A stretch of DNA of 42,389 nucleotides from Thiomicrospira sp. Its GTDB lineage: Bacteria; Pseudomonadota; Gammaproteobacteria; Thiomicrospirales; Thiomicrospiraceae. The DNA is taken from positions 1 to 42,389 of the forward strand of contig NZ_JACUTY010000014.1 in NCBI RefSeq assembly GCF_014859555.1, written 5' to 3'. A model generated the notes under the pieces. That model worked only from the letters and a program-made list of their open reading frames with translations. It searched no databases and was not told where the DNA came from. Positions 166 through 7,074 of this stretch are shown here, piece after piece (positions within the stretch are counted from its first letter, which is position 1; each line of letters begins with the position of its first letter). Position numbers and translations under genes: made by a program.

Positions 166-2154
166 TTAGTCTTTGGCTAACTGATCGCGGAACACCTGCT
201 CGAACATCGGCACCAGATATTTATTGCCGTATTCGCTGAGGTGGTCATCGTCGTAATACAAGGGGCGACCGTTGCGAGAACCGTAACAATATTTCTCATC
301 ACACAAATACGGCAATGGGTCGAGGATTTTTACCCCGCACTGTTCCGCCGCTTGGTCTTGCGCCTCCCACACCAATTTATGGCGCTCATGATATTCTTCA
401 AGGGTGATTTTGATATCGTCTTTAATGCCAAACATTAAATTTCGTGCCAACGTCTTTGGAACATGAATACCCATTTCGGGAACCGGGCGAACTAAATAAA
501 CCGATCTTTGACCAGAGAGCATGCAAGCCGTTTTAACCATTGAATTCCGAAACTGCTCCTGAAACAAAGAATCGTCGCCAAATTTTATTTCCTTATCAAA
601 AAATATCCTTGTCCGCCCTTGTAGCTCAACTGGTTCTTCATTACCGTTTAGAACTGCTCTTGTTAACCTACTAAACAATATTACAGGTTTAAAGTCATTT
701 CTGATTTCTAGTTTTGAAAATACTTGTTCGTTAAATTCGTAGCACCCTTGATTTGTCTCAAATGAATTAAACTTTGCATTTTTTAGAGTTGGACAAGCTG
801 CTTTTGCCCAGTACATCACGCTATATTGAAGTCTCTTTGCCGCTTCAGCGACCCCAGAAAAAGCACTATCAGCATGTGAGTCGCCAACAAGATAAGCACC
901 AACAACTATTGAACTAGACTGGCAATCAATCGGCTCATTAGTTTTACTTGAAACAGAGTAGCATTCAGTCTGCATGGGATTTTTATTATTCGCCTCAGCC
1001 GCCGCAATTTCTACCGCTGGTGGCAAACGATTATCAAAAGTAAATAATCGCACACTCACCGCTGCCAAGCCAATCACCAGGCCTGCTAGGGTTATGGCAA
1101 AGATTTCTTTGCGCAAGCTGGAGGCGGAGAGATAAGAGCGGGTGGGTACTTCGACCAGGTGGTAGGACAGATGCGCCAATACTAAACTCAATACAATGGC
1201 GCCACTGACCCACAACCAGTCGTTTTGCAGGCCTGCAAAATACAGCGCGACCACCAACGGCCAGTGCCATAAATATAATGAATAAGAACGATCACCCAAC
1301 CATTGCGCCAGCGGATTCACCGTGAATTTAGCTTGGCTTTGATTGGCGAGAATAATCAACACCGTGCCCAGCACCGGCAACAGTGCCCAGCCTGACGGCC
1401 ATGCGTAGGTGCTGTCTAATAAAACAAACGCAATAACCCAAAGTGCAAAGCCACTCCAAAGCATGGGTTTGGCAAAACGCTGTAGCGCAACCACTTCACG
1501 CCCAATTAAAAACGCCAAACCACCGGCGGCCAATTCCCAACCACGAGTCGGCAATAAATAAAACGCCGCTGTGGGTTGCCAGCTACTCGCCACAATACTC
1601 AACGCCAACGAAGCGACAAACACCAGCCCTAAACCCCAAAACAGGGTTTTAAGTTGCGGTTTAATTTTCCAAAGAATGATTAAAAAGATCGGGAACAGCA
1701 GATAAAACTGCGCTTCGACCGCGAGTGACCAAGTATGCAATAACCATTTTTCGTGCGCGGCGGCATCAAAATAACCGGTTGAACGCCAAAAATGAATATT
1801 CGATAAAAAGCCAAGCGAATACGCCGACTGTGAACCCAGCGCTTGATAATCCGGTGTTGGCAGAAAAAACCAACCCAAAGCCAAAAGCACCGTTATCACC
1901 ACCATGAGCGCCGGCAAAATGCGCCTTGCGCGCGCCATATAAAACTTCCAAATCGAGAAGTTTCCGCGCTCCAGCCCTTTAACAATAATCGCGGTCATTA
2001 AAAAACCGGAAATCACGAAGAAAATATCCACCCCAAAAAACCCAGCCCCCAGGCCTGGTAGTTGAAAGTGGAATAACAACACGGCGACAACCGCCCAAGC
2101 GCGTAGGCCGTTAATGTCTTCGCGATAAGCAACGGGGGAAGGTAAATGCTGCAT
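166..2154 (-). CDS. OafA/YrhL-type membrane acyltransferase with C-terminal SGNH domain
   Basis: Predicted inner-membrane O-acyltransferase of the acyltransferase-3 family, which transfers acetyl or similar groups to surface polysaccharides. About 662 residues. The N-terminal half holds the family opening REDINGLRAWAV, about ten hydrophobic segments, and the motif FFGVDIFFVISGFLMT. The C-terminal part (from about residue 420) looks like an SGNH hydrolase domain, with a GDSHADS block and a final DDDHLSEYG block carrying the Asp-x-x-His pair. The frame is open upstream to a TTG, but ATG at 2154 is preferred: it has AGG upstream and leaves the family motif near the N-terminus. It is divergent from the XRE regulator, with operator-like repeats between them, so it may be that regulator's target. 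The acceptor polysaccharide cannot be told from sequence. Confidence 0.88.
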   Translation of the reverse strand: MQHLPSPVAYREDINGLRAWAVVAVLLFHFQLPGLGAGFFGVDIFFVISGFLMTAIIVKGLERGNFSIWKFYMARARRILPALMVVITVLLALGWFFLPTPDYQALGSQSAYSLGFLSNIHFWRSTGYFDAAAHEKWLLHTWSLAVEAQFYLLFPIFLIILWKIKPQLKTLFWGLGLVFVASLALSIVASSWQPTAAFYLLPTRGWELAAGGLAFLIGREVVALQRFAKPMLWSGFALWVIAFVLLDSTYAWPSGWALLPVLGTVLIILANQSQAKFTVNPLAQWLGDRSYSLYLWHWPLVVALYFAGLQNDWLWVSGAIVLSLVLAHLSYHLVEVPTRSYLSASSLRKEIFAITLAGLVIGLAAVSVRLFTFDNRLPPAVEIAAAEANNKNPMQTECYSVSSKTNEPIDCQSSSIVVGAYLVGDSHADSAFSGVAEAAKRLQYSVMYWAKAACPTLKNAKFNSFETNQGCYEFNEQVFSKLEIRNDFKPVILFSRLTRAVLNGNEEPVELQGRTRIFFDKEIKFGDDSLFQEQFRNSMVKTACMLSGQRSVYLVRPVPEMGIHVPKTLARNLMFGIKDDIKITLEEYHERHKLVWEAQDQAAEQCGVKILDPLPYLCDEKYCYGSRNGRPLYYDDDHLSEYGNKYLVPMFEQVFRDQLAKD

Positions 2155-2193
2155 ACTACTTAGGCCTTGAAAATAAAACCCGAAGTTTAACAA

Positions 2194-2267
2194 AAAAGTA
2201 ACCGATAGTTACTTTTAAAAACAACTTTTAGTTACCGAATTTTTATACAAAAGGTAACTTCAGTTGC
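2194..2267. promoter_or_regulatory. Operator cluster, GTAAC-N5-GTTAC palindromes
   Basis: The 113-bp divergent gap holds a perfect 9-bp inverted repeat, AAAAGTAAC and GTTACTTTT, with a 5-bp spacer at 2194-2216. A second half-conserved site follows at 2221-2235 (ACAAC-N5-GTTAC) and a third at 2254-2267 (GTAAC-N4-GTTGC) directly before the regulator's ATG. Multiple related dyads between a phage-type repressor gene and a divergent gene are typical of an autoregulated operator region. Binding by the adjacent XRE protein is inferred. Confidence 0.65.
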
Positions 2268-2666
2268 ATGAAAAAAGACTCCGAACTATTTAGTCAACGC
2301 TTAACAGAAGCCATGAAAGAGGGGGGTTATCAACCCCGTCCTGTGGTTTTAGAGCGCGAGTTTAACCAGCGATATTGGGGACGACCTGTTTCCGTGCAAG
2401 CCATCAGAAAATGGTTAATGGGCGAAGTCATTCCCACGCAAGATAAACTTCAAGTTCTCGCTGAATGGTTAAATGTCGATCCGCATTGGCTAAGGTTTGG
2501 TGAGAAGTTGTCGGGGTCGGTGCAACAACAGCGCAAACGCTGGGATGCGAATATGACGCCACAAGAACGCCAGGTTGTGGAAAGCTTTATGAGCCTGCCG
2601 CCGGAAAAGCGCAAAATCGTTGGCGAAATCGTGTTCGCGTTTGCGCATTCAACCGCCAAACCTTGA
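2268..2666 (+). CDS. XRE-family (phage repressor-like) DNA-binding regulator
   Basis: 132-residue protein with an N-terminal helix-turn-helix of the Cro/CI type (about residues 8-68: VSVQAIRKWLMGEVIPTQDK is the recognition region, followed by LQVLAEWLNVDPHWLRFG). The remaining part is short and charged, with no peptidase or ligand domain visible, so it is a small dimeric regulator of the kind often found as a domesticated phage repressor. It starts at ATG 2268 after an AAGG about 13 bases upstream. The dyads immediately upstream suggest it controls itself and the divergent acyltransferase. No other phage gene is nearby. Confidence 0.8.
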   Translation: MKKDSELFSQRLTEAMKEGGYQPRPVVLEREFNQRYWGRPVSVQAIRKWLMGEVIPTQDKLQVLAEWLNVDPHWLRFGEKLSGSVQQQRKRWDANMTPQERQVVESFMSLPPEKRKIVGEIVFAFAHSTAKP

Positions 2667-2691
2667 CTTATGACAAAGATTGCCATACTGT
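2663..2691 (+). promoter_or_regulatory. Possible promoter of the parDE pair
   Basis: TTGACT at 2663-2668 is followed 17 bases later by TACTGT (2686-2691), with a TAAGAT nearby at 2691-2696. It overlaps the end of the XRE gene and lies about 30 bases before the antitoxin start. The -35 box is good and the -10 box is weak. Confidence 0.35.
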
Positions 2692-2719: not shown

Positions 2720-2950
2720 ATGGCGACCATGAATATTTCCCTACCAGATCAAATGAAAAGCTGGGTTGAAGAGTCGGTTCAGTCAGGGCTTTATGCCAAT
2801 GCATCAGATTATGTACGTGATTTGATTCGCCAGGATCATCAAAAAATGGCCGCGTTACGCCAAGCCTTAATCGAAGGTGAAAACTCTGGTGCAGCAAGTG
2901 AATTTGATTTGGAGGCGTTTATCCAAGCCAAAAAACAAACCGCCCAATGA
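2720..2950 (+). CDS. parD: ParD-family antitoxin (ribbon-helix-helix)
   Basis: About 76 residues. The N-terminal segment MNISLPDQMKSWVEESV followed by GLYANASDYVRDLIR is the ParD/CopG ribbon-helix-helix signature, which both represses the operon and anchors the toxin-binding tail. The acidic C-terminal half (residues about 45-76) should wrap the toxin. Several in-frame ATGs exist (2717, 2720, 2729); 2720 is chosen because GGAG at 2710-2713 lies six bases upstream. The stop overlaps the toxin start as ATGA at 2947-2950, the usual translational coupling of such pairs. Confidence 0.9.
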   Translation: MATMNISLPDQMKSWVEESVQSGLYANASDYVRDLIRQDHQKMAALRQALIEGENSGAASEFDLEAFIQAKKQTAQ

Positions 2951-3237
2951 AGATTGAGCTTTCACCCAAGGCGCAGGAGGATTTAAGCGATATTTGGGAT
3001 TATACCAATCAACAATGGGGTACAGCGCAAGCTGAAATTTATGTTCGCAACATTTGGCACGCCATTGAAAGTTTGAAATGCAGTTATAACCCTTCACAAA
3101 ATATCGATTTTGTTCGAGCCGATTATTACAAAATACAATCGGGTTCCCACGTCATCTTCTTTAAACAGGCTTCAGAAACACTCACTGTTATTCGTATTCT
3201 TCATCAGCAAATGGATATAACGAAACACCTCCCCTAA
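2947..3237 (+). CDS. parE: ParE-family toxin (RelE/ParE superfamily)
   Basis: 96-residue protein with the ParE fold signature: MKIELSPKAQEDLSDIWDYT at the N-terminus, then a helical region with WHAIESLK, and the C-terminal strands YKIQSGSHVIFFKQ and LTVIRILHQQMD. The family acts on DNA gyrase (ParE) or cuts mRNA on the ribosome (RelE); the closest pattern here is ParE, and the partner gene agrees. The length is usual for the family and no truncation is seen, so the module is probably active. It may be chromosomally stabilising or a remnant of mobile DNA; no integrase or plasmid gene accompanies it. Confidence 0.9.
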   Translation: MKIELSPKAQEDLSDIWDYTNQQWGTAQAEIYVRNIWHAIESLKCSYNPSQNIDFVRADYYKIQSGSHVIFFKQASETLTVIRILHQQMDITKHLP

Positions 3238-3281
3238 ATCGTAGATTCCATCTCTAAAACTTAAACCACCAGGCCTGGTGC

Positions 3282-3308: not shown

Positions 3309-3318
3309 CTGCATGACA

Positions 3319-3421
3319 TCTCTCGGGGTGCGTTTGTGTGTATTTTGTTTCGCGAACGCTGAGAAGGTCTTAGACCTAACCCGCTGAACTTGAACTGGTT
3401 AGAACCAGCGTAGGGAAGAGA
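3319..3421 (+). ncRNA. TPP riboswitch (thi box)
   Basis: The conserved aptamer elements are present in order: TCTCGGGGTGC at the 5' side of P1/P2, GCTGAGA at about 3358-3364, CCCGCTGAACTTGA at about 3390-3403, the CTGGTTAGAACCAG stem-loop, and the closing CGTAGGGAAGAGA. It binds thiamine pyrophosphate and turns down downstream thiamine biosynthesis genes. The aptamer is complete. Unusually, 335 bases separate it from the thiC start, with a palindromic repeat in between, so the switching part cannot be simple occlusion by an adjacent Shine-Dalgarno. No clear terminator hairpin with a U-run was found just after the aptamer. Confidence 0.95.
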
Positions 3422-3586
3422 ATCATCTTAATCGGCGTGCTTTATTTCCATCCTTCGCCGTTTCTGAATGCCTCCGGTGCCTACGTGTTCTATGACCAGG
3501 CCTGGTGGTTGCAAATCCCCATCAATCCTGATCATTCAACACGACTCAACCGACTTTTCACGCTGTTTTTCTGCCTTTGAATTTAA

Positions 3587-6879: not shown

Positions 6880-7074
6880 ATGATTTTACTGATTAACGAT
6901 AAACCTACAGAAACCAAGGCTCAGACTTTAGCAGGCCTGGTGGTTGAGTTGAATATTGAAGGCGCCTTTGCGTTGGCGTTAAATCAAAACTTTGTACCCA
7001 AAAGCCAATACGCCAACACACTTATAAATGAAAACGACCGCATAGAAATCGTCGCCCCCATGCAAGGCGGCTGA
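6880..7074 (+). CDS. thiS: Sulfur carrier protein ThiS
   Basis: 64-residue ubiquitin-like protein ending in the diagnostic Gly-Gly (IVAPMQGG). The C-terminal glycine is adenylated and converted to a thiocarboxylate that delivers sulfur to ThiG for the thiazole ring. Normal family length. It sits between thiO and thiG, separated from each by a palindromic repeat rather than by tight operon spacing. The LAGLVVEL segment near residue 20 is encoded by a CAGGCCTG palindrome. ThiF and ThiE, which would be expected in the pathway, are not in the window. Confidence 0.96.
   Translation: MILLINDKPTETKAQTLAGLVVELNIEGAFALALNQNFVPKSQYANTLINENDRIEIVAPMQGG

Follow-up and report, generated by a model that had tools for sequence, protein, structure and literature searches.

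A short regulator gene of the XRE type and a surface acyltransferase gene diverge from a common gap in Thiomicrospira sp., and this gap carries a phased array of four dyads. The window, meaning the whole 42,389-nucleotide stretch analysed here, is a contig of a 2.1-Mb genome. Comparison with other genomes reveals that such arrays recur upstream of relatives of the regulator and that the gene on the other side changes from locus to locus, while the genome itself has no further exact site between genes. The best reading of this pattern is that the regulator is probably a lambda/434-like autorepressor, whose phased operator array would control both its own gene and the gene that faces it.

The operator array in the control gap

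The acyltransferase gene (166-2154, minus strand) is assigned the ATG at 2154-2152 from its orthologs, because the start M-x-HLPSPV is kept in two other Thiomicrospira genomes, G053 and G054, and the TTG leader of the window's longest open reading frame has a stop in G053. The gap therefore covers 2155-2267, up to the XRE gene (2268-2666, plus strand). It contains four AAC-N4/5-GTT cores at 2177-2187, 2200-2210, 2223-2233 and 2256-2265, with centres at 2182, 2205, 2228 and 2260.5 and centre-to-centre distances of 23, 23 and 32.5 bp.

Each core belongs to a predicted operator, to which no strand is assigned. The probable operator O1 (AACCCGAAGTT, 2177-2187), an AAC-N5-GTT core 23 bp from O2 centre to centre, overlaps a -10-like TGTTAAACT read on the minus strand. 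Its exact core is also present in G053, G054, G058 and G060, and with one mismatch in G059; in an alignment of control regions, it is absent from two Marinospirillum loci and from L019. The predicted operator O2 is the perfect 9-bp dyad AAAAGTAAC-N5-GTTACTTTT at 2194-2216, centred on 2205, and dyads of related sequence occupy the same place in several relatives. The predicted operator O3 has the core AACTTTTAGTT (2223-2233), centred on 2228 and again 23 bp from O2. Finally, the predicted operator O4, GTAAC-N4-GTTGC at 2254-2267 (centre 2260.5), abuts the XRE start codon. At this position, the other five Thiomicrospira loci, as well as L017, L019 and L041, carry AAC-N5-GTTAC right before the start codon; the site is altered in L018 and L020 and missing in L021.

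The original prediction had described the perfect dyad, which is real, together with two weaker ones. Both of these exist as O3 and O4, but the last has a gap of four bases, not five. The array as a whole also stood up against shuffled sequence, although its reported extent, 2194-2267, missed the fourth dyad, O1. From the sequence, the dyad observation is correct and stronger than originally stated.

At least four cores occur in none of 5000 dinucleotide shuffles of the 116-nt gap, and three cores in 12. When the window is cut into 729 half-overlapping pieces of 116 nt, three have at least two cores, one has at least three and none has four, the piece borders splitting the array itself. The perfect 9-bp dyad by itself is weak evidence and only moderately unusual: it is present in 180 of 5000 shuffles of a 118-nt gap, and the window has 16 entries with perfect arms of at least 9 and gaps of up to 10, two of which overlap.

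Two tentative -10 elements fit this layout. For the acyltransferase, TAAACT preceded by TG (2184-2189, minus strand) is proposed from sequence and conservation and overlaps O1; for XRE, TATACA (2244-2249, plus strand) is proposed from sequence only, lies between O3 and O4, and is not conserved in the alignment of related loci. Because a promoter scan found no consensus sigma-70 promoter in the gap, the promoter-operator layout is tentative.

Recurrence of the dyads upstream of XRE relatives

Upstream regions of 130 nt were compared for 77 of 80 loci with a usable XRE start (L036, L084 and L096 were dropped), and 47 representative regions were kept by shared 6-mers, a step in which loci duplicating one place collapse. 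For some loci a later ATG, 15 nt downstream, was chosen; this affects distances to the start and leaves those between sites unchanged. Over the 47 regions, 2.6 occurrences are expected for either spacing, but AAC-N5-GTT is found 44 times and AAC-N4-GTT 17 times, the largest count in 200 shuffles being 9 in each case; with any other gap from 0 to 15, the AAC-GTT core stays inside the shuffles' range. A second pattern, TGAA-N7-TTCA, is found 13 times against 0.2 expected. Inverted repeats of any 5-mer also exceed the shuffles at gaps of 1, 5, 6, 7, 9 and 11, and GAA-N12/13-TTC does likewise, an excess that would be expected from overlapping or neighbouring half-sites of an array.

At least one strict site is present in 34 of the 47 regions (5.3 expected) and at least two in 30 (0.24 expected), counts that are not independent because related sequences remain among the regions, 15 of which share one helix type. 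The 13 regions with no strict site belong mostly to distant relatives but also include L018 and L020, Marinospirillum loci that face an acyltransferase and have imperfect dyads only. The spacing is likewise regular: in 27 of 60 site pairs, from 20 regions, the distance is 22-24 bp, where uniform placement would give 1.6 and 2000 simulations reach 6 at most. A further 21 pairs are separated by 11-11.5, 34-35 or 46 bp; the last 12, with the window's 32.5-bp pair among them, have other distances. Shuffles, upstream-region counts and phasing together rule out a chance origin of the four-core array.

The half-sites vary with the regulator. Where XRE has F or Y in place of the window's V43, TGAA-type half-sites are present in 8 of 13 regions; the other 34 regions have none. 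With related sequences counted many times, this is the pattern that joint change of recognition helix and operators would produce.

Loci without a facing gene give a mixed picture of array decay. In L017 (Thiopseudomonas), the upstream gene runs in the same direction as XRE, and two strict matches remain, one of them TTTAAC-N5-GTTACATG kept at the start codon; L088, where nothing convincing faces XRE, lacks strict sites, as do the partnered L018 and L020. All three acyltransferase orthologs that face XRE in Thiomicrospira genomes have three or four upstream dyads. Such dyads are absent from the 160 nt upstream of all six ortholog copies (36-57% identity) in five genomes of the family in which no XRE was found; only in L114 and L115 is this stretch a fair intergenic control, the other four copies having most or all of it occupied by another gene. 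That the dyads are the acyltransferase's own conserved promoter is unlikely given these XRE-less orthologs, four of them with coding sequence upstream, and given that the dyads face quite different genes. The originally predicted tie between an operator-like array and the regulator of a divergent pair gains from both the recurrence and the XRE-less orthologs.

Within the genome, control looks local. GTAAC-N5-GTTAC occurs five times, against three for a reversed-pattern control, and the four other copies lie within open reading frames of 259-725 residues, which leaves no other intergenic exact site. A genome-wide regulon of exact GTAAC-N5-GTTAC matches is not supported.

The XRE regulator and its relatives

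The 132-residue regulator belongs to the XRE/Cro-CI type by its HTH_3-type DNA-binding domain, as indicated by Pfam, a family alignment and an AlphaFold2 model. HTH_3 (PF01381) scores 23.1 bits against a cut-off of 23 over residues 41-75 and is the sole Pfam family found at E up to 1; neither a C-terminal peptidase domain (LexA-like) nor a ligand domain was detected. The model (pLDDT 84.4, pTM 0.59) places helices at 4-18, 25-35, 43-50, 58-67 and 72-77, and consists of an N-terminal Cro/CI-type bundle plus three further helices. Foldseek gives weak fold matches to P22 c2, SinR, C.Csp231I and 434 Cro, and also to C.AhdI and C.BclI, none of them at E 0.001 or better, and three solved relatives match weakly by sequence. 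Pfam likewise confirms all the gene identities that the original prediction had assigned: XRE, acyltransferase, ParD and ParE.

Relatives with 42-81% identity are found at 22 loci in Thiomicrospira, Marinospirillum, Thiopseudomonas, Thiobacillus and several Rhodocyclales-type genomes. At E up to 0.001, matches, some partial or distant, are present in 9 of 62 genomes of the regulator's own family, its own included. A sample of 369 genomes from the class contains 5 with a match, among them the regulator's own and G054, and the family of G423 has 79 among 250 genomes. Two XRE proteins of this last family match Marinospirillum ones at 100%, which places Marinospirillum in it. Plasmid records contain a match in 11 of 72,556 cases, two of them near full-length (48% and 40% identity), and one genome, G001, has three copies plus a fourth, distant match.

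Exchange of the divergent gene

The divergent gene encodes an AT3-SGNH surface-glycan O-acyltransferase (OafA-like), in which PF01757 (E 1.2e-34) is followed by PF19040 (E 1.8e-48). XRE faces such a gene in the window, in G053, in G054 (where it is interrupted by stops), in two Marinospirillum genomes and in one uncultured gammaproteobacterial genome. Elsewhere in the genus, it faces an MBOAT gene and a gene without a Pfam family (G060), a glycosyltransferase-2 gene with further genes behind it (G059) or an MmeI-like methylase (G058, locus L047). N6_N4 methylases diverge from XRE in L024, L029 and L095, with a weak match below the Pfam cut-off in L036, and a PAPS-reductase gene that we labelled DndC-like does so in L028. 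In G001 and the family of G423, the facing genes encode GGDEF proteins with PAS, GAF-EAL, phytochrome-like or PAS_2 parts, and a third G001 locus has an MCP gene with a GGDEF-EAL gene behind it. Other distant relatives have mixed neighbours, such as LPG_synthase_C, AdoMet decarboxylase, a deoxyhypusine-synthase-like protein and FAA hydrolase. Co-conservation in relatives, as envisaged by the original prediction, is seen for regulator and dyads in most regions but not for the acyltransferase, which on these comparisons is not a constant partner of the family. The proposed switch for surface polysaccharide modification loses its specificity accordingly, surface acylation being one of several partners.

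DNA homology between the window and G060 stops at 2140, in acyltransferase codon 5, and returns at 163-220, in its last codons; the acyltransferase body was therefore replaced in G060, with both ends and the control region kept. Marinospirillum minutulum and M. insulare share common flanks, and their acyltransferases are 36% (over 342 residues) and 57% identical to that of the window. A constant start with a different body is also seen in L028 (2755-3912), where the first residues of the methylases of L024, L029, L036 and L095 (MPKSLLEQLPEI or close) are kept and a PAPS-reductase body follows, which may be another sign of exchange.

A tree of XRE proteins from 37 hand-picked loci carries at least 12 partner changes (20.9 when shuffled), or 8 without the 10 rows labelled 'other', the labels being set by hand from Pfam, tblastn or the sequence start and several of the 'other' rows (L022, L023, L027 and L100) lacking a Pfam check. 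L036, whose XRE has a frame break, enters with its best aligned part only. The XRE proteins of G054 and G058 are tree neighbours on short branches, yet they face different genes. Partner-label changes would also be expected from transfer of XRE between loci, and the tree is silent on which of the two moved.

The address of the module varies in the genus as well. Judged by eye, it lies near a leuS-like gene in G053 and G060 (L037, L048) and beside a thiC-like gene in the window, G054 and G058 (L039, L047), where DNA homology spans the thiC-like gene. In G059 (L038), a remnant of the acyltransferase 3' end at 6886-6945, 92% identical to window 166-226, lies downstream of parDE, across XRE from the divergent side, and suggests duplication and deletion at the locus.

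Proposed mechanism and alternative readings

In the autorepressor model, the gap would be the shared control region of a divergon. The 132-residue XRE protein would bind, probably as dimers, to the four dyads with the core AAC-N4/5-GTT. O1 and O2 would cover the putative acyltransferase promoter, while O3 and O4 would flank the putative XRE promoter, with O4 abutting the start codon. Given these positions over and around both putative promoters, rising XRE would shut off its own gene and the divergent one, in the manner of lambda, 434 or P22 repressors or of restriction-modification C proteins; surface acylation would respond in turn. XRE might also activate instead of repress. With neither a peptidase nor a ligand domain detected, the likely input is the concentration or turnover of the protein itself. 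Regulator and array would act locally and would have stayed while the divergent gene was replaced, so the acyltransferase can be regarded as the current occupant of a regulated slot.

Whether the divergent gene is controlled at all is the point on which the simplest alternative differs: the array would only autoregulate XRE, and the facing gene would be incidental, its transcription uncontrolled. The varying identity of the partner fits this account, as does L017, where the upstream gene is co-directional and the start-codon site and one more strict match remain. It is nevertheless unlikely, as O1 and O2 lie closer to the acyltransferase start than to the XRE start and O1 overlaps the -10-like element of that gene. 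Methylases facing XRE in L024, L029, L095 and L047 (L036 weakly), the DndC-like gene in L028, and the Foldseek matches to C.Csp231I, C.AhdI and C.BclI would instead suit a controller resembling C proteins, able perhaps to activate and repress, that ancestrally served a DNA methyltransferase or Dnd gene and was recruited later by surface and c-di-GMP genes. On the XRE tree, however, the five methylase rows are scattered (five changes, no clustering), so an ancestral methylase partner is not indicated, and since all those structural matches are weak, with none at E 0.001 or better, this history is very improbable.

The name 'phage-type repressor' in the original prediction points to yet another origin, a phage-derived immunity switch for serotype conversion of the host surface. 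The Cro/CI-type fold and a weak similarity to lambdoid cI (35% over residues 8-84) and to PHROG repressors speak for it, as does O-antigen acetylation by an AT3 protein that is phage-encoded in Shigella, according to the available part of PMC9558356. However, the fold is common to XRE regulators in general, and scans reaching close relatives only confirmed no relative of XRE (0) or of the acyltransferase in viral contigs. Only 31 of 50,697 phage records match XRE; none reaches 60% identity or spans 80% of its length. The C-terminal peptidase domain of LexA-like phage CI repressors was not found in the protein, several of its close relatives sit on contigs of 1.4 to 5 Mb, and the genes to the right look, by eye, like thiamine genes behind a TPP riboswitch. 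A phage origin of XRE is not supported, given these viral-contig scans and the partial, weak phage matches, and the serotype-conversion switch as a whole is extremely unlikely. The originally suggested effect on phage adsorption gains no support either.

The autorepressor reading has a broader and more tentative extension. The XRE subfamily and its array, phased at about 23 bp, could possibly form a portable control cassette, in which recombination in the first codons of the divergent gene swaps its body and leaves regulator and operators in place. A surface, defence or signalling gene that enters the locus would then find concentration-dependent control ready-made. The bodies concerned are surface acyltransferases, MBOAT or glycosyltransferase genes, methylases, Dnd genes and c-di-GMP enzymes. 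Helix and half-sites would drift together, which could insulate copies in one genome, such as the three in G001. The locus would then be a candidate for a portable genetic switch that occurs in nature.

ParDE and the right flank

Behind XRE lie a ParD antitoxin (2720-2950, plus strand; PF03693, TIGR02606) and the ParE toxin of the pair (2947-3237, plus strand; PF05016), whose open reading frames overlap by 4 bases, as a ParDE toxin-antitoxin pair. The original prediction rightly placed the pair directly after the regulator in the window; it is also present in G054, G059 and G060 but not in G053 or G058. Since ParDE accompanies four of the six Thiomicrospira loci and is missing from the other loci compared, it is rejected as a component of the conserved module. 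In G060 (L048, 9273-9381), the last ~28 XRE codons and a few bases are repeated after parDE with 89% identity to window 2573-2684, as if the arrival of parDE had brought along another copy of the XRE 3' end. Just downstream of parE, a TPP riboswitch (RF00059, 78.6 bits) at 3314-3433 precedes the thiC-like gene, named by eye.

Relation to known systems

Autoregulated local repressors with phased operator arrays are a kind of system already known, and the mechanism proposed here is a textbook one. Like the lambda/434/P22-type repressors, XRE has a Cro/CI-type fold, with weak Foldseek matches to P22 c2 and 434 Cro, and several dyads about 23 bp apart between two divergent genes; lambda operators are spaced 23-24 bp. 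Unlike them, it was not found in phages by sequence scans, has no C-terminal peptidase domain, and faces a surface or signalling gene here rather than a lytic programme. With restriction-modification C proteins, as presented in the available part of PMC6237814, it shares its short XRE-type protein and dyads just upstream of its own gene, and some family members face DNA methyltransferases. It differs in its 132 residues with extra C-terminal helices and its acyltransferase partner, and no restriction gene is present among the neighbours tested by Pfam (acyltransferase, ParD and ParE). The acyltransferase, in turn, resembles the OafA/Oac type in its fusion of AT3 to SGNH, an architecture that acylates surface glycans; the available part of PMC9558356 mentions no divergent XRE with an operator array for such enzymes.

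Judged by titles and the starts of abstracts, the papers found in literature searches give no description of this XRE subfamily with these partners or of partner exchange. The subfamily forms a natural series whose members differ separately in regulator, half-site and regulated gene. Such a series would allow tests of repressor-operator co-evolution and of the way in which surface or defence genes come under control once newly acquired. A regulator of one kind is also predicted to switch both surface acylation in Thiomicrospira and, in the family of G423, the GGDEF genes that lie opposite XRE.

A separate feature of this DNA is the palindrome ACCAGGCCTGGT, which is very strongly over-represented in the window, with 27 matches at up to 2 mismatches against 1.06 expected, including 128-139, 2048-2059, 3268-3279 and 3495-3506. 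Among the literature matches listed, 'highly iterated palindrome' does not occur together with Thiomicrospira. The genome has 660 exact copies and each of nine genomes of the genus has 181-688, against 0 for the reversed pattern, an abundance that resembles that of cyanobacterial HIP1.
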